Position numbers and translations under genes: made by a program
DNA from: Kushneria indalinina DSM 14324
GTDB lineage: Bacteria; Pseudomonadota; Gammaproteobacteria; Pseudomonadales; Halomonadaceae
NCBI RefSeq assembly: GCF_003385845.1
Contig: NZ_QRDJ01000006.1
Location: forward strand, 496,001 to 560,000
DNA length: 64,000 nucleotides
Reading direction: 5' to 3'
Notes under the pieces: generated by a model
What the model saw: the letters and a program-made list of their open reading frames with translations, nothing else
Database searches by the model: none
What the model was told of the DNA's origin: nothing
In this document: piece after piece, positions 22,843 to 46,840 of the stretch
Layout: every line of letters begins with the position of its first letter
Numbering within the stretch: position 1 is the first letter of the stretch

Positions 22843-22873
22843 GGGACGACAGAGCTTCGGGAGCCGACAACGT

Positions 22874-23017
22874 TTAACTCTGGCCCAGGCGTACCAGCAG
22901 CTGATGGCGAACTGCAGACGGACAGGTCGCCAGATAGCGGCAGAGCAACGCTCTGGGCAGGGCATTCATATCGGCCAGCCGGGTGTTGTGAACGCGCAGA
23001 TAATCGCTTGAAGACAT
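22874..23017 (-). CDS. Small hypothetical protein, 47 residues
   Basis: A short minus-strand gene starting at the ATG 23015-23017, chosen because AGAGGAGAT lies just upstream. The product (MSSSDYLRVHNTRLADMNAL at its start) is basic with hydrophobic Leu-rich stretches and two cysteines, and has no membrane helix or motif I recognise. A longer frame up to 23155 has no ribosome site. It converges on recD and is divergent to the RibD-like gene. The good ribosome site is the main reason for calling it. Confidence 0.5.
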   Translation of the reverse strand: MSSSDYLRVHNTRLADMNALPRALLCRYLATCPSAVRHQLLVRLGQS

Positions 23018-23413
23018 GACAATATCTCCTCTCTGGATGATCGACATGTGCTGATGGTGACAGGCCTTTGGGTAGCGACCCGGGCCACCATGTAATGGCT
23101 TAAATTCTTGTACATTATCAGTACAAGGCGTGTTGAATTGCCAGTCAACGCTCATGAATTTTCACAATCAGCAGGCATGACATTTTTGAACACTGTTCCT
23201 TGAAGCCTCTGAATAAGCCGGTTTCGGCCCATAAGAACCTCATTGCATGGACCTTTTCAGTTAACGGCAGAGGTTTTTGGGAAACTTGTACAATTTTATT
23301 CTTATCAAGGGGCGTCGTGTGTGCATGACAGGCCTTTTGAAGCGGCAAGGCTGTCCGTAGGGTCGCTATTGTCATGTTTTTAAACCGCAACGTACCGGAG
23401 TAGCAGAAGGCTT
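23018..23413. other. Divergent intergenic region with TTGTAC repeats
   Basis: About 400 bp without a convincing gene, AT-richer than its neighbours. It holds the perfect inverted repeat at 23107-23127 and a second palindrome TTGTACAA at 23286-23293. It should contain promoters for the small minus-strand gene and for the RibD-like gene. A minus-strand reading frame across 23145-23390 has no ribosome site or family features, and I leave it out. Confidence 0.5.
23107..23127. promoter_or_regulatory. Perfect inverted repeat CTTGTAC-N7-GTACAAG
   Basis: CTTGTAC at 23107-23113 mirrors GTACAAG at 23121-23127 with seven bases between, a typical operator geometry for a dimeric regulator. The related palindrome TTGTACAA recurs at 23286-23293, about 120 bp before the RibD-like gene. 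The regulator is unknown. Confidence 0.5.
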
Positions 23414-24283
23414 ATGGCAGCGACGACAATTTCCAGAGCGCAGGCCTGGGAACATGTATTGCGCGCCCGCCGGTTTGACTGGCAGCGCGGTCTCTCGTAT
23501 CAGCACGGGCCGATATCAATAACGGCCGGGGGAGAGTGGCACTGTAGTGACGACATTGACGCACCCGCGTCGCAGCTGCTCGACATCATGCTGCCGCTGG
23601 TGGCCCGCACGACGCCCCTGGTCATGGCGCAGCTGGGTCAGAGCCTTGATGGGCGTATCGCCACGGAGTGCGGGGCGTCCTACTACGTGACCGGACAGCA
23701 AGGCCTTGTTCATCTGCATGCACTGCGGGCCGTGGTCGATGCCGTTGTGGTCGGCGCCGGCACCGTGGCCATGGATGATCCGCGCCTGACCGTGCGCCAT
23801 GTGGCAGGGGAGAATCCGGTCCGGGTGGTGCTGGACCCGCGGGGTCGAATGTCTGAAAGTCGCTTTGTCTTTGAAGATGACAGCGCCCCGACGCTGCATC
23901 TGGTGGGGCATGAGCATGTGGCGCGCTGGCAGGCATGTCACGAGCGCCACGGCCGTGGCGTCAGCGTAGGCGGGCTTGGCCTGAAGGAGGACGGTGTCGA
24001 CCCCCGCGAGGTCATCGACCTTTTGCGCCATCAGGGATTGAACAGCGTGCTGGTAGAAGGGGGCGGGATGACCATTTCGCGGTTTTTACAGGAAGGCTGC
24101 CTCAATCGTCTGCACAGTATGGTCACCCCCATGATTATCGGTTCGGGCCGGCCCACGCTGACCCTGCCGGTCATCGAGTGCCTGAGTCAGGCGATGCGTC
24201 CGTCGGCTCGTCATTACACGCTGGGTGATGATGTGCTTTTTGACCTCGATCTTGGCGCTGTTGCGCAAACAGACCGTAATTAA
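23414..24283 (+). CDS. RibD C-terminal type pyrimidine/pterin reductase
   Basis: A 289-residue NADPH-dependent reductase of the RibD-C / dihydrofolate-reductase-like fold. The core is clear: MAQLGQSLDGRIATECGAS, VDAVVVGAGTVAMDDPRLTVR, NPVRVVLDPRGRM and SVLVEGGGMTISRFL. The deaminase half of RibD is absent; instead there are about 70 residues of unassigned N-terminal sequence. Stand-alone reductases of this kind act on riboflavin-type pyrimidines or on pterins. GGAG lies about 14 nt before the ATG. It heads the pterin/glycosyl cluster that runs to about 30 kb, and no other riboflavin gene is in the window, which favours a specialised role. Confidence 0.82.
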   Translation: MAATTISRAQAWEHVLRARRFDWQRGLSYQHGPISITAGGEWHCSDDIDAPASQLLDIMLPLVARTTPLVMAQLGQSLDGRIATECGASYYVTGQQGLVHLHALRAVVDAVVVGAGTVAMDDPRLTVRHVAGENPVRVVLDPRGRMSESRFVFEDDSAPTLHLVGHEHVARWQACHERHGRGVSVGGLGLKEDGVDPREVIDLLRHQGLNSVLVEGGGMTISRFLQEGCLNRLHSMVTPMIIGSGRPTLTLPVIECLSQAMRPSARHYTLGDDVLFDLDLGAVAQTDRN

Positions 24284-24361
24284 CCTTTCTTTTCAGGGCC
24301 TTCGTTGATCGGGTTTCTGTGAAAATGCCAGGGTCCCCTCGTCATTGACTGGAGCCTGAGA

Positions 24362-24589
24362 ATGAGTGTGAAAGGGTTGGTATCGCTGCTGTTTTGTGTG
24401 TTGCTGGTGGTGTCCGGCATCTGGCTGACGCTGGATCAGGCACATCAGGAGCGGCAGTGGAACCTCAAAAGGGATGCGGCCAATGGGGTGATCCCCGGCG
24501 AGCTCCCGGGCGATGAAGCCACTGCCGGCACCGGTCAGCAGAGCAGCGAAGACGATAGCGATAGCGGTATCGTCAACATGCTGCCCTGA
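24362..24589 (+). CDS. Small single-pass membrane protein
   Basis: A 75-residue protein with one N-terminal hydrophobic helix (LVSLLFCVLLVVSGIWLTL, about 6-24), then a charged region and an acidic, Gly/Ser/Asp-rich tail. CTGGAG precedes the ATG at a good distance. The topology suggests a periplasmic acidic tail anchored by an uncleaved signal. It follows the RibD-like gene by 78 bp on the same strand and ends two bases before the stop of the converging UPF0104 gene. No family recognised. Confidence 0.6.
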   Translation: MSVKGLVSLLFCVLLVVSGIWLTLDQAHQERQWNLKRDAANGVIPGELPGDEATAGTGQQSSEDDSDSGIVNMLP

Positions 24590-24591
24590 TC

Positions 24592-25596
24592 CTATCCGGG
24601 CACCTGACGAGAGCTGGTGTGTCGTCCCATCAGCAGGACCACGGCGCCCGGCAGACTCGAGAGTAATATGATTGCCCCGTAGGTCACTGAAATGGCCACG
24701 CCCTGCTGAGCCGATAGCCCGGCCAGCATCCAGATCAGCGCCGCCGCGCTCTCCCTGATCCCCCAGCCGGCCACGGAAATCGGAATGGCCATGGCCATCA
24801 GCACTGGTGGCGTCAGCGCCAGCAGAGTGGTCGTCGGCAGAGGCTCTCCCAGGGCTCTGGCGCAACAGACAAATACCAGCATGTAGCTCAGGACAATGGC
24901 CAGCGAACTCGCCAGCTGGCGCAGCCACAGCCGTCGGTTCCAGAGCCCGCGACGCAGATCGCGGCGCAGGGCGCTCAGCCATTGTGGCGGGTGCCTAAAG
25001 GCCCACACGCCCGCCAGCCCCATCATCATCAATGCCAGGTAGACCAGCGCGTAGGGTATGTCGGTGCGGTCATGCAGCATCAGATTCAGCCGTGACCATC
25101 GCTCGACCAGCCCGTGGCGCAGCGGTGTAAAGATGAGCAGCGTGGCCAGCGCGACCAGTAACAGGGCAGCCTGACCCGAGGCGCGCTCGATAATGACCGC
25201 CCGCAGTGCGGCACCATGAGAGGCATTTCGGGTGCCGTGTCGCCAGGCACGTCCCAGATCCCCCGTCACGCCGCCCGGCAGCATCTGATTGAGAAAGGTC
25301 GATAGATAGTATTCACGGATGGCGGTGGTCAGCGGCAGCGACATGTCCATGTGGCGCGCGGTCAGTCGCCATCGCCAGGCGGACAGCATGATCTGAGGCA
25401 CCGAGATCAGCAGTGCCAGGGCCAGCCAGCCCGGAGAAAGATCGCTCAGGCGCGCCAGCAGGGCATTGATATCCACCAGCCAGAACACGCTTCCCAGCAG
25501 GATCAGCGTCAGCGTCCAGCGCAGTATCGAAGAGCTCAGCAGGCACCGATACCCGCGCATGAGGCCCGCCGCTTGTCGAGGTCGGTCGGCGCTCAT
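24592..25596 (-). CDS. UPF0104 / lysylphosphatidylglycerol-synthase-like membrane protein
   Basis: A 334-residue polytopic membrane protein with about eight helices, matching the transmembrane domain family of MprF and AglD (UPF0104). Recognisable parts are YYLSTFLNQMLPGGVTGDLGRAWR, the family's conserved loop, and ISVAGWGIRESAAALI near the end. The aminoacyltransferase domain of MprF is missing, so lipid translocation or an accessory role in glycolipid or polysaccharide export is likelier than lysine transfer. It is the last gene of the minus-strand operon, overlapping the methyltransferase stop by 4 bp. Confidence 0.8.
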   Translation of the reverse strand: MSADRPRQAAGLMRGYRCLLSSSILRWTLTLILLGSVFWLVDINALLARLSDLSPGWLALALLISVPQIMLSAWRWRLTARHMDMSLPLTTAIREYYLSTFLNQMLPGGVTGDLGRAWRHGTRNASHGAALRAVIIERASGQAALLLVALATLLIFTPLRHGLVERWSRLNLMLHDRTDIPYALVYLALMMMGLAGVWAFRHPPQWLSALRRDLRRGLWNRRLWLRQLASSLAIVLSYMLVFVCCARALGEPLPTTTLLALTPPVLMAMAIPISVAGWGIRESAAALIWMLAGLSAQQGVAISVTYGAIILLSSLPGAVVLLMGRHTSSRQVPG

Positions 25597-26501
25597 GACC
25601 CCTCGGGCACGGCGAACAGATCGGTATGCCCCACTGTGATGACGAGACGGCCATGGGCAATATCCTGCTGGCGCCTGTCATGCCACTGCTTCAGGGCCTG
25701 GCGCTGATCGCTCGCCTGTTCCAGCGCGGCCTCCAGCCAGCCCTGAACCAGCGCCTGCGCCAGAAGTGCCTGGTCGGGAGAAGCGCAGTCCAGCTGCCAG
25801 GGAGCACTGGTTCTGGTGACCTGATAGCCGGCCTCTTCAAGCAGGGTGGCGGCCACCTCCGGTGCCTGCGTACCCAGTGCACCGTTAAAGCCCTTGTCAC
25901 GCTGCTGATGGGCTCGGATCAGTGCCTGCACCTGCTGATCCATCGCCAGCAGGTCAGCATCGCCATGGTTGCCGTCACGGTCGATAAGCGCATTGTCACC
26001 ATTGATGCTCATGGCCAGCCAGACCGCGCATTGATGCGACGCGCATCGAGCAGTCAGCGTTTCCAGCCATGGGCTTGAGACCAGATCCAGCAGGGCGGAG
26101 GCGGTGACAATATCGGTTTTGCTTAGTACATCGTCCGTCAGCGCCTGATCCAGCCCGGAAAGGTCGCGCTGCAGGCAGTGCAGTTCGGCAATATGGTCAT
26201 GATGGGGATGGCCCTCGCCACGGGCATGCGCCAGCAGCGCAGGGTCCTGATCGATCAGGGTCCAGTGCTGTTGCGGTGGCAGGCGAGGGGCGAGATAGCG
26301 CAGGTTGTTGCCACTGCCACAGCCCAGATCCAGCAATCGCAAGGCGCCCTGGTGCGGGCGTGATGACAGCCAGTGTCGGCAGATGCCGGCCAGCGGCTGC
26401 TCATCGCGGGCACGATGATCGGCTGCTTCACGCAGGGCAAGCCACGATGGGCTGAAATCACTGTGCTCGGCCATCTCGCCCTGAGGCCGTGGTGGGGTCA
26501 T
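25593..26501 (-). CDS. Class I SAM-dependent methyltransferase
   Basis: A 302-residue protein with a Rossmann-like SAM-binding core. Motif I is LLDLGCGSGNNLRYLAP near residues 50-66, and the acidic residue after strand 2 is in WTLIDQDPALLAHA. The C-terminal portion (QALKQWHDRRQQDIAHGRL) is helical and has no named domain. The substrate is unknown; placement between a glycosyltransferase and a UPF0104 protein suggests modification of the cluster's product. The start lies 15 bp after the GT4 gene stop and its stop overlaps the next start. Confidence 0.82.
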   Translation of the reverse strand: MTPPRPQGEMAEHSDFSPSWLALREAADHRARDEQPLAGICRHWLSSRPHQGALRLLDLGCGSGNNLRYLAPRLPPQQHWTLIDQDPALLAHARGEGHPHHDHIAELHCLQRDLSGLDQALTDDVLSKTDIVTASALLDLVSSPWLETLTARCASHQCAVWLAMSINGDNALIDRDGNHGDADLLAMDQQVQALIRAHQQRDKGFNGALGTQAPEVAATLLEEAGYQVTRTSAPWQLDCASPDQALLAQALVQGWLEAALEQASDQRQALKQWHDRRQQDIAHGRLVITVGHTDLFAVPEGS

Positions 26502-26516
26502 CGGCGGTCGCTCCGG

Positions 26517-27608
26517 TCAGGAAACAGCATTGGCGTGCAGGCGATTGAGACAGGCCAGAAAGCGCTCGGCAGCGCCCGGCCAGTCATTGAGCGTCCGGCG
26601 GGCTTCCAGCGCCCCCTGACGCAAACTCTGATACTGCGTGCTGCGCGTCTCGGTGTCGTCAAACAGCAGTGTACGCAGCGCGTCTCGCAGCGCCATCGCA
26701 TCGTCAGGGGGAACGTGGACACCGGCACTGTCAGGCAGGGTGTCGGCCAGAGCGCCGCCGGTGGTCGTGACCGCTGGCAGACCATGGGCCAGCGCCTCGG
26801 CGATCACCATGCCATAGCCTTCGTAAAAAGAGGGCAGGACAAACAGATCGCTGTGCTGCCAGTGCGCTTCGAGCGCCTCGGGCGGCTGCGCGCCGTGAAT
26901 CGTGACGCGCTGCTCGAGCTGATGCTCGATGATCAAATCGCGAAGCCTCTCGGTATAGCGTTCGTCGCGGGTGTCATCGCCGATCAGAGCACAGTGCCAG
27001 TCGTGCGCCTTGAGATCGGCCAGCGCCTCGATCAGCAGATGCTGGCCCTTGCGAGGAATCAGTGTGGCGATGCACAGCAGTCGCGGTGTGTCGTTGTCTG
27101 CCGGGGCGATGGGTACCGGCGTAATGCCGGGCTCGATCACGCTGATGCGTGAGGCATCGATATCCAGCTCGATCAGACGGCGCCGCGTGAAGGCGCTGGT
27201 GACGATAATGCCGGCGACTGACTGCAGCGCCTGGCATTCAAGCGTCAATAGCGTTTCCCGCTGATTCTTTTCGAGGCCGGTTTCATCTCCCAGGGGATGA
27301 TGAACAAGCGCCACCAGCGTCAGGCGATGGGCATGCACTTCCAGCACATCGGGCATGGCGCTGGCGGCCAGGCCATCAACGACCACCAGGCTGCGATCGG
27401 TACAGCCCCCCAGCGCCCGCTGCAGCGATTCACGGGCAATATCATCCGGCCACGGGAAGCGGCCATCCAGGCCGATGACCTCGACGGCAATGCCGGTCTC
27501 GCGCAGTGCCTCGACAATACGCCTGTCATAGATATAACCGCCGGTCAGCTGATCCGGCCGCCCGGCAACGATCAGGGTCAGGCGGCGAACGGAACTCTCG
27601 GATGTCAT
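26517..27608 (-). CDS. GT4 family glycosyltransferase
   Basis: A 363-residue GT-B fold enzyme. The donor-binding half is typical: PRLLCIATLIPRKGQHLLIEAL, the EGYGMVIAEALAHGLPAV segment with the EX7E pattern, and AGVHVPPDDAMALRDAL. Such enzymes retain anomeric configuration and use a nucleotide sugar. The acceptor half starts with VAGRPDQLTGGYIYDRRI. Its ATG overlaps the PTPS-like stop by 4 bp, a sign that it is made with that protein. Sugar and acceptor are unknown. Confidence 0.88.
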   Translation of the reverse strand: MTSESSVRRLTLIVAGRPDQLTGGYIYDRRIVEALRETGIAVEVIGLDGRFPWPDDIARESLQRALGGCTDRSLVVVDGLAASAMPDVLEVHAHRLTLVALVHHPLGDETGLEKNQRETLLTLECQALQSVAGIIVTSAFTRRRLIELDIDASRISVIEPGITPVPIAPADNDTPRLLCIATLIPRKGQHLLIEALADLKAHDWHCALIGDDTRDERYTERLRDLIIEHQLEQRVTIHGAQPPEALEAHWQHSDLFVLPSFYEGYGMVIAEALAHGLPAVTTTGGALADTLPDSAGVHVPPDDAMALRDALRTLLFDDTETRSTQYQSLRQGALEARRTLNDWPGAAERFLACLNRLHANAVS

Positions 27609-28003
27609 AGCGACCCTTCATAGCTTGCACAAGCAATGTGGGATTCATGCAGGGTGACGCTCAGCGCCGTCAGTCCCTTGCCGGTTTCACCCAGCTGGTC
27701 GGCCTCGATCGAGGCGGCCATGCGGTCAAAGATGACCCGGGCCATGAACTCGGTGGTGGTATTACGCCCCTTGAACTCCTCGATCTCGTCAAGGTTTTGC
27801 ATGTTGATATCGCTCAGCACTTCCGACAGCGTCTGGCTGGCAAGGCCGATATCGACGATCAGATCATCCTGATCCAGGTCGGGACGCTTGAAGGTGACGT
27901 CCACAATGTAGGTGGCGCCATGCAGTTTCTGGGCCGGGCCGAAGATCTGGCCGTTGAAGCTGTGGGCGATCATGACGTGATCGCGAACGGTAAGGCTATA
28001 CAT
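27605..28003 (-). CDS. 6-pyruvoyltetrahydropterin synthase / QueD homologue with altered active site
   Basis: A 132-residue member of the PTPS/QueD fold, recognised from DHVMIAHSF, KLHGATYIVDVTF, NTTTEFMARVIF and the final LHESHIACASYEG. In QueD the motif CxxxHxH supplies the catalytic cysteine and two zinc histidines. By manual alignment this protein keeps His14 and His28, but Ala24 replaces the cysteine and Ala30 the third zinc ligand. The catalytic Asp-His pair also appears to be absent. Glu120 is retained. It is therefore unlikely to be an ordinary QueD and may catalyse another pterin reaction or only bind pterin. It is placed between an MDR dehydrogenase and a glycosyltransferase in one operon. 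Confidence 0.78.
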   Translation of the reverse strand: MYSLTVRDHVMIAHSFNGQIFGPAQKLHGATYIVDVTFKRPDLDQDDLIVDIGLASQTLSEVLSDINMQNLDEIEEFKGRNTTTEFMARVIFDRMAASIEADQLGETGKGLTALSVTLHESHIACASYEGSL

Positions 28004-28030
28004 GGCGAAACTCCGAAAAGAAAAAATGAA

Positions 28031-29011
28031 TCAGGTGCTGTAGCGAATGCGGTGGCACAGCGTGCCGGGCTCGGTGGTCACGCGCGCCATGGTCTCGGGC
28101 AGCGCTTCAAAGGCGCTTTCTGCATCGATCAGGATGTCCAGGCGGTCATCTTCCAGCAGCGACAGGGCCTGTGTCATGCGCTCACCATGCGTGCGCCGTG
28201 CCGCGCGGGAAGGGGAGACCGTGCCGACCTGGCTGGCCCTCAGCGTCAGTCGGCGCGAGTGAAACGCCTCGCCCAGCGGCAGACTGACCGACTGCGCGCC
28301 GAACCAGCTCATCTCGATAATGGTCGCCTCCTGCCCGGCAAGGGTCAGCGCCTGTTGAAGCCCGCCCTGGCTGCCGCTGGCATGGATGACCAGGTCGCAT
28401 TCTCCCTGCGCCTGTGCCGGCGTTGAAAAGGCGATATCCAGTGCTCGGGCCAGCGTTTTGCGCGAGTCGTCGATATCGATCAGCTCGACCCGGGTGCCCG
28501 GGATATTGCGACACAGCCAGGCCATGAGCGTGCCGACAACGCCTGCGCCGATAACGGCAATGCGGTCACCGATGCGGGGGGCAGCGTCCCACAGGCCGTT
28601 GAGCGCCGTTTCCATGTTGGCGGCCAGCACGGCCCGCTCGGCAGGTAGCCCATCAGGCAGGGGGATAAGCATGGCGGCCGGGGCCACGTAGCGGTCCTGA
28701 TGGGGATGCAGACAGAAGACGTAGCGGCCTTCAAGCTCCCGCGGGCCTACTTCCACCACGCCCACGCTGGAATAGCCGTATTTGACCGGCCCCGGAAAGT
28801 CACCCTCCTGAAAGGGCGCGCGCATGCGCGCATGTTCGCTTTCAGGAACCCTGCCGTGAAAGACCAGCGTTTCGGTGCCCCGACTGATGGCGCTGTAACA
28901 GGTGCGAACCCTGGCCTCATTGGGGCCGGGAACTGCCAACGGCTGTGTTCGAATCACGCCCTGTCCGGGGGCTTCGACCCAGAAGGCGCGAGCGGTATTG
29001 TCCGAGCTCAT
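28031..29011 (-). CDS. MDR-superfamily dehydrogenase lacking usual zinc ligands
   Basis: A 326-residue medium-chain dehydrogenase. The nucleotide fold is [16 protein letters not shown] with the acidic residue in [11 protein letters not shown], which favours NAD(H). In zinc alcohol dehydrogenases the catalytic Cys lies in CGxCGTD and the His in GHE; here those sites read SAISRGTE and YGYSS, so catalytic zinc is probably absent. SxISRGTE is the form I associate with BchC-like bacteriochlorophyllide dehydrogenases. It is the first gene of the five-gene minus-strand operon, 27 bp before the PTPS homologue. Substrate unknown. Confidence 0.82.
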
Positions 29012-29308
29012 TCATGACCCTGTGCGTTGTGGAATGACACTGTGCCACCAAAGGGCGCCGGGTAGTATAGACACTGTCCATGCATTCGCCGTGTCGTGCA
29101 AAGCTTGAGTCAACCTGCTCCAGCCGTGAGCATTGCGTCACAAAAGGTGATCAAACGCTTTTTTGGTAACATGGTTTATCATGAAGGCATCCGCTTTTAC
29201 TGCTGTATGATGACATGCTGATGAATATTGTATGTCCTTTCCGGGGCTGTCCAGAACATGACCGGGCAAGGGCAGGAATGTCTGCTGATGGTACTGGAGG
29301 TCCTCGAC

Positions 29309-30046
29309 ATGCGTGAACAACGGATTGCCATACGCCAGTTCACCTGGCCCGCTTCCGGCGTGTGCAGGGAGCTTCTGGTCGGGTTTGTCGGGCTGATGCT
29401 GCTGGCATTTGTGCTGCGTGTCATGGACATGGCGCCGGTATCACTTTATCCCGGCGCTGGAGGCGCCTATCTGGTGCTGGTCGGGGTGATGATATATGGC
29501 TGGCCCGCTGGCCAGCAGCGCCTTGGCTGGGCCAATCGCGTTACCCTGGGGCGGGCAGTGCTGATCGCGCTGCTCACTGCCATGCTGCCACTACCGGCGT
29601 TCATCAATGAACACCATTTGCTGGTGTTTGCCATGGCCCTGATGGCGCTGGCGCTGGACGGGGTGGATGGCCTTGTGGCGCGTCGGACGCACACCGAGAG
29701 TCGTTTTGGCGCGCGTCTGGACATGGAACTCGATGCCTTTTTCATCCTGATGCTGTGTCTGATGCTGGTGATCCAGGCCAAGGCCGGCATGTGGATCATG
29801 GCCATTGGCGCCATGCGCTATCTGCTGATTGCCGCCGCCTGGCGATGGCCCTGGCTCGGAAGTGAGCTGCCGGTCAGCTACCGTCGCAAGACCATCTGTG
29901 TCTGGCAGGTCTCTACGCTCATGACGTGTCTGCTGCCCTGGGTGGCAACGCCCTGGTCAAATCTGCTTCTGGCACTGTCGCTACTGCTGCTGCTGATCTC
30001 CTTTGCCGTGGATATCACCGACCTGTACCGACGTCGCCCTCGATAA
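29309..30046 (+). CDS. CDP-alcohol phosphatidyltransferase family protein
   Basis: A 245-residue membrane enzyme with six or more hydrophobic helices. The signature D-x2-D-G-x2-A-R-x8-G-x3-D-x3-D is intact in ALDGVDGLVARR followed by FGARLDMELD, so it should transfer a phosphatidyl or similar phospho-group from a CDP-linked donor to an alcohol. The ATG at 29309 has GGAGG 8 nt upstream; longer in-frame starts (29228 and 29258) do not. It is divergent to the MDR-PTPS-GT operon and followed by an AstE-like gene. Whether the product is a phospholipid is unknown. Confidence 0.88.
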   Translation: MREQRIAIRQFTWPASGVCRELLVGFVGLMLLAFVLRVMDMAPVSLYPGAGGAYLVLVGVMIYGWPAGQQRLGWANRVTLGRAVLIALLTAMLPLPAFINEHHLLVFAMALMALALDGVDGLVARRTHTESRFGARLDMELDAFFILMLCLMLVIQAKAGMWIMAIGAMRYLLIAAAWRWPWLGSELPVSYRRKTICVWQVSTLMTCLLPWVATPWSNLLLALSLLLLLISFAVDITDLYRRRPR

Positions 30047-30109
30047 GGCTGTATTTCCGGCGAGAACAGCCGATACAGTGTCTCGTTTGCCTCTACTTTC
30101 AACGCCCTG

Positions 30110-31129
30110 ATGAGTATCCGTATGGCCCGTGACGCCTTTGTACTGGCGGGAGAGCAGGTGCTTCCCGGCCAGCGCCGCCAGATTGATGTGCCGGTAGCCC
30201 GTCTTTATACCCACACACCGCTCAATATCCCGGTAGAGGTCGTTCATGGCCGCCGGGAAGGCCCCATCATGCTGGTGTGCGGGGCCATTCATGGTGACGA
30301 AATCAACGGGGTGGAAATCGTTCGGCGGGTGCTCAAGACGCGGTCACTGTCGCGTCTGCGCGGGACCCTGATTGCCGTGCCGATCGTCAATGTGTTCGGT
30401 TTCGTCCAGCACAGCCGTTATCTGCCGGACCGTCGGGATCTGAACCGCTGCTTTCCCGGCAGCGAGTCAGGATCGCTGGGGTCACGCATTGCCGCGCTCT
30501 TTCGTGAGCAGGTGGTGGATCTGGCCACGCACATTCTGGATCTGCACACTGGTGCCATCCATCGCACCAACCTGCCCCAGATTCGCGCCCAGCTGGAACG
30601 CAACGAGCAGACCCGCGCCATGGCGGATGCCTTTGGCGCGCCGGTGATTCTCAATGCCGAACTGCGCGGCGGCAGTCTGCGCGAATATGCCGAGCGCCGC
30701 GGTATCCCGGTGCTGACCTACGAGGCGGGCGAAGCGCTGCGCTTTGATGAATGGGCCATCAGTGCCGGTGTGCGCGGCGTACTGCGGGTCATGCGTTTGC
30801 TGGACATGTTGCCGGCCGGTCGTGGCAGCAAGGTGCCGGCTTCCGAGGTGGCGCGCAGTTCCAGCTGGGCTCGCGCGCCCATTGATGGCGTGCTGCGCCC
30901 GCGCGTTCGACTGGGGGCGCGGGTGGTCAAGGGCGAACGACTGGGGATCGTGGCCGGCCCCTTTGGTAACGAGGAGGGCGATGTGCTGGCCTCAAGCGAG
31001 GGGATCGTGATCGGCATGAGCAATCTGCCGCTGGTCAACGAGGGCGAGGCGGTCTTTCATATTGCCCGCTTTCACGAGCTGGGGGATGCCGAACACGCCG
31101 TGGAAGCCTGGCAGGCGCGCGTCGAGTAG
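30110..31129 (+). CDS. Succinylglutamate desuccinylase / aspartoacylase family protein
   Basis: A 339-residue zinc amidohydrolase of the M14-related AstE/AspA family. Zinc ligands are seen in GAIHGDEINGVE (His, Glu) and in LDLHTGA (His). RDLNRCFPG is the conserved substrate loop. The C-terminal segment (ARAPIDGVLRPRVRLGARVVKGERLG) forms a small beta domain that is common in this subgroup. No astABCD genes are near, so arginine catabolism is not indicated. It lies 63 bp downstream of the CDP-alcohol transferase on the same strand. Confidence 0.85.
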   Translation: MSIRMARDAFVLAGEQVLPGQRRQIDVPVARLYTHTPLNIPVEVVHGRREGPIMLVCGAIHGDEINGVEIVRRVLKTRSLSRLRGTLIAVPIVNVFGFVQHSRYLPDRRDLNRCFPGSESGSLGSRIAALFREQVVDLATHILDLHTGAIHRTNLPQIRAQLERNEQTRAMADAFGAPVILNAELRGGSLREYAERRGIPVLTYEAGEALRFDEWAISAGVRGVLRVMRLLDMLPAGRGSKVPASEVARSSSWARAPIDGVLRPRVRLGARVVKGERLGIVAGPFGNEEGDVLASSEGIVIGMSNLPLVNEGEAVFHIARFHELGDAEHAVEAWQARVE

Positions 31130-46680: not shown

Positions 46681-46756
46681 GGGGCCTTAGCTCAGCTGGG
46701 AGAGCGCGACACTGGCAGTGTCGAGGTCAGCGGTTCGATCCCGCTAGGCTCCACCA
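46681..46756 (+). tRNA. tRNA-Ala (anticodon GGC)
   Basis: A 76-nt cloverleaf. The acceptor stem GGGGCCT pairs with AGGCTCC with one G-T wobble, the anticodon stem is CGACA/TGTCG around loop CTGGCAG (anticodon GGC), the T arm has GGTTCGATCC, and CCA is encoded. It reads GCC and GCT alanine codons. Confidence 0.97.
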
Positions 46757-46764
46757 CCCTTTAC

Positions 46765-46840
46765 GTCCCATTCGTCTAGTGGTCCAGGACACCGCCCTTT
46801 CACGGCGGTAACAGGGGTTCGAACCCCCTATGGGACGCCA
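46765..46840 (+). tRNA. tRNA-Glu (anticodon TTC)
   Basis: A 76-nt cloverleaf starting GTCCCAT and ending ATGGGACGCCA. The anticodon stem CCGCC/GGCGG surrounds loop CTTTCAC (anticodon TTC), the T arm has GGTTCGAACCCC, and CCA is encoded. It lies 8 bp after tRNA-Ala, almost certainly in one transcript. Confidence 0.97.

Follow-up and report, generated by a model that had tools for sequence, protein, structure and literature searches.

The window analysed here is a stretch of 64,000 nucleotides from Kushneria indalinina DSM 14324 (contig NZ_QRDJ01000006.1, positions 496,001 to 560,000; genome G000, 3.75 Mb), and it carries a compact gene cluster built around a protein of the 6-pyruvoyl-tetrahydropterin synthase (PTPS)/QueD fold. 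Reading down the minus strand from position 29011, the cluster consists of an apparently zinc-less medium-chain dehydrogenase/reductase (MDR) with a GxGxxG NAD(P) motif (28031–29011; assigned from NCBIfam, conserved residues and a modelled fold), the PTPS-fold protein itself (27605–28003; Pfam PTPS, 82 bits), a family 4 glycosyltransferase (GT4; 26517–27608; Glycos_transf_1, 110 bits), an S-adenosylmethionine-dependent methyltransferase (MT; 25593–26501; Pfam methyltransferase domains) and an LPG_synthase_TM/UPF0104 protein with an MprF-type flippase domain (24592–25596; Pfam, 138 bits). These genes are tightly packed, with gaps of 27 bp between MDR and PTPS and 15 bp between GT4 and MT, and overlaps of 4 bp at both PTPS-GT4 and MT-UPF0104. 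A RibD_C-type reductase (RED; 23414–24283; Pfam RibD_C, 123 bits), followed by an open reading frame (ORF) of 75 aa, converges on them from the plus strand. On the other side a CDP-alcohol phosphotransferase (29309–30046, plus strand; CDP-OH_P_transf, 56 bits) diverges from MDR across an intergenic stretch (29012–29308) that may act as a control region common to the two genes, and the same divergent arrangement recurs in many relatives' loci. Given a family median length of ~240 aa, the transferase probably starts at ATG 29309 rather than at TTG 29228, which is also possible. The gene families, positions, arrangement and both overlaps described in an earlier note on this DNA are confirmed.

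To follow the cluster outside Kushneria we scanned species-level genome contigs with an 18-row PTPS alignment, which matched at least 593 stretches, at least 580 of them confirmed. Eighty loci were kept (hereafter scan loci). Going by their record titles, they belong to the Gammaproteobacteria including beta-type members, Alphaproteobacteria, Actinomycetota and Acidobacteria, with a single metagenome bin of Gemmatimonadetes; some of the bins may be misnamed. Gene content was counted by six-frame profile searches, using profiles built from the same loci. MDR, PTPS and GT4 are each present in all 80 scan loci, across four phyla, and MT in 78. The remaining genes are less regular: CDP-alcohol transferase (73), RED (64), UPF0104 (61), a creatininase-family protein (50) and GTP cyclohydrolase II (49), followed by YceI (28), OpgG (26), FkbM (25), OpgH (22) and an MdoB-like protein (16). 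Within the 62 scan loci that have at least 8 kb on either side (flank-complete loci) the corresponding counts are 57 for CDP-alcohol transferase, 55 for RED, 50 for UPF0104 and 42 each for cyclohydrolase and creatininase. The order MDR-PTPS-GT4-MT recurs across phyla and the grouping is therefore more than chance: these genes are one conserved system. The prospect raised in the earlier note, that the genes might not be kept together elsewhere, is contradicted by these counts, whilst the cyclohydrolase and creatininase of most relatives and the links to OpgH, OpgG, MdoB-like, YceI and cytochrome b561 proteins go beyond what it described. GT4 and MT are fused in 26 ORFs within the scan loci. The actinobacterial scan relatives carry MDR-PTPS-GT4-MT, mostly with UPF0104. 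GT4 found no match when searched in viral contigs.

The PTPS gene is found in 91 of the 151 genomes of the window's family, in 13 of 24 genera, and the closest scan locus, from Kushneria pakistanensis, encodes a protein 98% identical to that of the window. One of the 91 genomes (G091) retains only the two ends of the gene, at contig bases ~775419–775580 of locus L220; MDR was not found at that locus, and the cluster there is evidently decaying. Across the class, 107 of 369 genomes match PTPS, 17 of them at 41–100% identity (E ≤1e-27), the rest being ordinary-QueD-like at 21–31% identity. A survey of the phylum returned 32 of 397 genomes at E ≤1e-15. Moreover, in a family whose genomes measure 0.7–1.2 Mb the gene is present in 18 of 25 genomes (E ≤1e-36), including 11/11 of those with completeness of 90% or more and contamination of 5% or less. 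In 14 of these 18 there is also a remoter PTPS-family match, ~20 kb off where both lie on one contig.

The PTPS-fold protein is the best conserved of the set (29 family relatives compared). As in QueD and 6-pyruvoyl-tetrahydropterin synthase (COG0720), the two Glu of the PTPS family are both kept. However, the third zinc His is replaced by Ala in 102 of 103 sequences (the window protein plus 102) and by Thr in the other, whilst the first two zinc ligands, His14 and His28, are invariant in the 18-row alignment. Gaps in the 103-sequence alignment displace the first His and the Cys of the catalytic triad, and the latter was therefore counted from the HG motif; it is Ala24, invariant in 18 sequences. 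At the positions aligned to D70-H71 of Escherichia coli QueD, Asn and an aromatic residue or Met prevail, so that the Asp-His pair is not kept either. The Glu equivalent to E110, which we take to be the anchor of the 2-amino-4-oxo ring, is retained in 102 of 103 sequences. Among solved structures the nearest is that of SCO6650 from Streptomyces coelicolor (PDB 3D7J), a whole-length profile match (199 bits, E 2.8e-58) with the same GPAQ-LHGAT and HESH motifs. SCO6650 reportedly lacks zinc, the triad and PTPS activity (Spoonamore, Bandarian and colleagues, 2006, 2008). Judged by these residues, the window protein belongs to a predicted zinc-less subfamily that has lost its catalytic residues and kept the ring-binding Glu. 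Its kind is already known, though uncharacterised, because SCO6650 has a solved structure. The other PTPS-family matches of the window genome fall in a 283-aa frame with two tandem PTPS domains (G000:C1:874463-875188).

MDR is the second altered enzyme, and the earlier note's mention of two such enzymes is borne out. It reaches no Pfam cut-off, and its best NCBIfam match is BchC at 43 bits against a 291-bit cut-off. The 102 MDR sequences share SRGTE, PHQ, ETAxNxxWD and SQV signatures, among which catalytic zinc ligands were not found: no Cys is conserved at 97% and the lone His lies within PHQ. The AlphaFold model has an MDR fold (predicted local distance difference test score 92.7), and its top fold matches are a mixture of zinc alcohol dehydrogenases, polyol dehydrogenases and zinc-less reductases, which leaves the substrate unsettled. 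The nearest solved relatives of RED are 2,5-diamino-6-ribosylamino-pyrimidinone 5'-phosphate reductases (6P8C, 2AZN) and it has no deaminase domain; nor did one regular expression for the RibD-type deaminase motif find a match in the called ORFs of 106 loci. This is in line with the PTPS-fold protein keeping a Glu for a 2-amino-4-oxo ring. In GT4 a conserved E263-x7-E271 is present.

GTP cyclohydrolase II and the creatininase come and go together, both being present in 40 flank-complete loci, neither in 18 and one alone in 2 and 2. The window cluster has neither, and the gap at 22843–23413 holds no convincing remnant of them (best E 0.026 among the matches listed). Both are kept by G082 and G103, genomes from the window's own genus. 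No creatininase was found elsewhere in the window genome, where cyclohydrolase matches are confined to two frames, one of 223 aa and RibA-type, the other of 388 aa and matching GTP_cyclohydro2. Absence of the pair whilst the rest of the Kushneria cluster stays would follow if the same precursor came from RibA. In the cluster cyclohydrolases the three zinc Cys are kept in 58 of 59 matching loci. The remaining one, L105 of Halomonas sulfidaeris, matches only in pieces, in several overlapping frames (L105:14167-15404), and is therefore broken or misassembled. Among the enzymes examined, those of proteobacteria and acidobacteria have Tyr as the switch residue, with a single Ile in Halomonas locus L097, and the nine from actinobacteria have His, Met or Cys there. 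All ten non-Tyr enzymes are accompanied by a creatininase, and all nine cyclohydrolase loci without creatininase are of the Tyr type. SCO6655 was reportedly shown by Spoonamore, Bandarian and colleagues to make a formylated pyrimidine by means of Met in place of Tyr.

The remaining genes may act at the envelope. The CDP-alcohol transferase has an intact DxxDGxxAR-x8-GxxxDxxxD motif, and both UPF0104 (69 of 106 loci) and YceI (33 of 106) occur exclusively where this transferase is present; in locus L103 transferase and YceI are fused into one ORF. Cytochrome b561 behaves differently, seven of its eight occurrences among the 106 loci being without the transferase. Among the phylum genomes the transferase subfamily is present in 18 of 32 with PTPS versus 5 of 365 others (Fisher p 2e-18, uncorrected for descent). 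In three loci of the 1-Mb family (L210–L212) YceI has as neighbours an O-methyltransferase and a homologue of TrhO, and in E. coli a few kb separate trhO from opgGH.

Taken together, we put at about one in two the probability that this gene set, common to several phyla, turns GTP into a sugar-bearing, methylated, pterin-like compound for the envelope. GTP cyclohydrolase II would open GTP to a diamino-ribosylamino-pyrimidinone phosphate; most relatives bring their own cyclohydrolase together with the creatininase-family amidohydrolase, whilst Kushneria would draw on its housekeeping RibA. RED, judged by its relatives, would then convert the ribosyl group into a ribityl chain by reduction, ahead of any deamination, and the zinc-less MDR might oxidise or reduce that chain. 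The conserved Glu of the PTPS-fold protein may bind the 2-amino-4-oxo ring, and together the two proteins would yield either a modified pyrimidine or a reduced pterin-like ring, to which GT4 could attach a sugar and MT a methyl group. Finally, the CDP-alcohol transferase would link the product, through a polyol or sugar, to a phospholipid, and UPF0104 would flip it outward. In other lineages an OpgH-type glucan synthase may stand in instead, and in some of them the MdoB-like transferase could pass the head group to a periplasmic glucan. A glycosylated, membrane-linked reduced pterin-like product, close to what the earlier note proposed, is still the best fit. What the analysis shows directly is the conservation and linkage of the genes, the lost residues, the shared absence of cyclohydrolase and creatininase, and which export genes occur together; we infer each reaction as well as the product. 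More tentatively, the outcome might be an envelope molecule of a new class: a reduced pterin or ribityl-pyrimidine, both methylated and glycosylated, on phospholipid or periplasmic glucan. YceI and cytochrome b561 would perhaps service it as a redox-active cofactor in the membrane, and even 1-Mb genomes would have kept it.

Several observations weigh against this pathway. The co-occurrence counts take no account of shared descent, and some hits of the profiles for GT4, MT, RED and cyclohydrolase could be to ordinary family members in the flanking DNA. Seven of the 62 flank-complete loci have no RED, nor do 9 of the 11 actinobacterial ones. Most creatininases accompany Tyr-type cyclohydrolases, which should need no deformylase if the switch rule holds; a simple deformylase role for the creatininase, acting on the formylated pyrimidine, thus fits only in part, and we keep it as a possibility only. 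Twenty further loci were fetched. Six belong to the window's class, and the other 14 come from outside that class but within the phylum, presumably from Alphaproteobacteria (one of them, in G534, coincides in position with the Rhodospirillaceae record of locus L119). None of the 14 has a CDP-alcohol transferase, UPF0104 or creatininase at the locus; the lipid link therefore cannot be general. The other classes are not uniform, as G720 and G843 have the transferase ~2 kb from PTPS and three of the four alphaproteobacterial scan loci carry it at the locus. In G787 transferase and PTPS are on separate contigs. The transferase is only weakly similar to solved ones, which give no guide to its acceptor. 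Moreover, the five genomes with the transferase and no PTPS all belong to one family, two of them having a stop within the match, and in the one of them examined, G668 (locus L245), OpgG-cytochrome b561 is divergent from CDP-alcohol transferase-MdoB-like-UPF0104. The envelope module therefore also exists without the pterin genes, and the group in G668 is possibly a stand-alone module for transferring head groups from lipid to glucan.

An arrangement of this kind lends itself to another explanation, namely that the system decorates osmoregulated periplasmic glucans, a GTP-derived unit or polyol phosphate being moved by the MdoB-like enzyme from a lipid that is a carrier only. OpgH is present at 31 of the 106 loci, where its placement takes at least three forms, and the MdoB-like gene is present in 14 of 62 flank-complete loci. 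In nine of the 14 other-class loci the OpgH paralogue lies beside the core, taking the place of UPF0104; cyclohydrolase is present in seven and cytochrome b561, by ORF profile, in six. In a tree of 50 OpgH rows the cluster-linked other-class proteins fall in one clade of 14 (support 100/100) that includes L103, ten of its rows being linked. Thirteen of these 14 rows come from PTPS genomes (the exception is G878), a biased rate since the unlinked rows were picked from the best hits and from genomes with PTPS; five of these genomes have a second OpgH, which falls elsewhere in the tree. The 24 cluster-linked rows do not form one clade (two changes), as the Halomonas-linked OpgH is separate and that of Marinobacter, ~4.5–4.9 kb from RED, is a third. 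The linkage therefore arose more than once. However, OpgH is present in 137 of 397 phylum genomes and is therefore not specific to the system. In 61 of 106 loci the CDP-alcohol transferase is present with no OpgH nearby, and OpgH occurs in 0/11 actinobacterial loci. The window cluster contains neither OpgG nor OpgH, and the OpgH of Kushneria lies unlinked elsewhere in the genome and groups with that of E. coli. One MdoB-like protein searched against PDB gave no match. We consider glucan decoration unlikely as an account of the system as a whole, though it is the strongest of the alternatives.

Somewhat less likely again is a PTPS-fold protein that makes nothing and instead, as carrier or sensor of a pterin or GTP breakdown product, controls a glycolipid pathway run by the other genes. 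Loss of the zinc site and catalytic residues throughout the subfamily, with the ring-binding Glu staying, would suit such a role, as would its being the best conserved protein of the set; the dedicated cyclohydrolase, creatininase and reductase of many clusters point to synthesis rather than sensing. It seems improbable that the PTPS-fold protein and MDR make ordinary dihydroneopterin phosphate for folate or tetrahydropterins. On paper the chemistry balances, C1' reduction by RED and C2' oxidation by MDR equalling the Amadori step of GTP cyclohydrolase I, and MDR is nearest in sequence to polyol dehydrogenases (a weak match, E 5e-5), several of which are among its top fold matches. However, this would leave GT4, MT, the CDP-alcohol transferase, UPF0104, YceI and OpgH unexplained, and no recurrent folate-gene neighbour was noticed, though some neighbour families are unannotated. 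That the genes are merely unrelated neighbours, as RecB, RecD and AstE on the flanks indeed are, is refuted for the core by an order and content that recur in four phyla and in G534, where the set is split: one locus holds OpgH, CDP-alcohol transferase, YceI, FkbM and RED, and another, ~64 kb away, holds MdoB-like, MDR, PTPS, GT4 and MT.

The proposed synthesis of a GTP-derived envelope compound has partial parallels in known systems. The archaeal ArfA-ArfB-ArfC route provides riboflavin and F420 precursors. The relatives' clusters resemble it in having a creatininase-family protein and a diaminopyrimidine reductase after GTP opening; they differ in that the cyclohydrolase is of type II and in that RED and creatininase score below the ArfC-type and ArfB cut-offs. 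RED reaches 102.9 bits against TIGR01508 (cut-off 186.45), the ArfC type still being its closest kind in PDB, and the creatininase of locus L063 reaches 26.7 bits against ArfB NF033501 (cut-off 180), with MftE a better match that is also sub-threshold. UPF0104 matches the membrane domain of MprF, the lysyl-phosphatidylglycerol synthase/flippase, but lacks the lysyl-transferase domain and has a CDP-alcohol transferase as its partner. Part of the relatives' clusters share OpgH and MdoB-like proteins with osmoregulated periplasmic glucan synthesis (OpgG, OpgH, OpgB), whereas the window cluster has none of these genes. In the literature searched, which excludes most subscription journals, we found neither an assigned product for the gene set nor a link between pterin chemistry, lipid export and periplasmic glucans. 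One protein of the set already has a solved structure; descriptions of the complete system, of how widely it occurs, of its variants for export and of the glucan link did not turn up in that literature. With its marker gene in at least 580 stretches and in every one of the good streamlined-lineage genomes, the set is widespread for one with no product assigned in that literature. It would connect pterin chemistry starting from GTP with both the export of lipids and periplasmic glucans, and the old puzzle of SCO6650/SCO6655 could be put to the test in a tractable host, for example Halomonas or Chromohalobacter.

Lastly, some genes around the cluster can be set apart from it. The AstE/AspA-like amidohydrolase (30110–31129, plus strand; AstE_AspA_cat, 145 bits) and the 75-aa ORF, a one-helix membrane protein (24362–24589, plus strand), had both been counted as cluster members in the earlier note. 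AstE proves to be a local neighbour outside the conserved set, being present in 10 of 80 scan loci, all Halomonadaceae by record title, and the small membrane ORF, matched among the loci searched only in Kushneria loci L062 and L218, is probably local and outside the pathway. A 93-aa ORF beside RecD (22874–23155, minus strand) has a conserved tail of ~47 aa (22874–23017) matched in Kushneria and Phytohalomonas loci; the K. pakistanensis relative gave nothing above cut-off in Pfam, and we do not count this ORF into the system. Further along the window, a tRNA-Ala and tRNA-Glu pair lies at 46681–46840.

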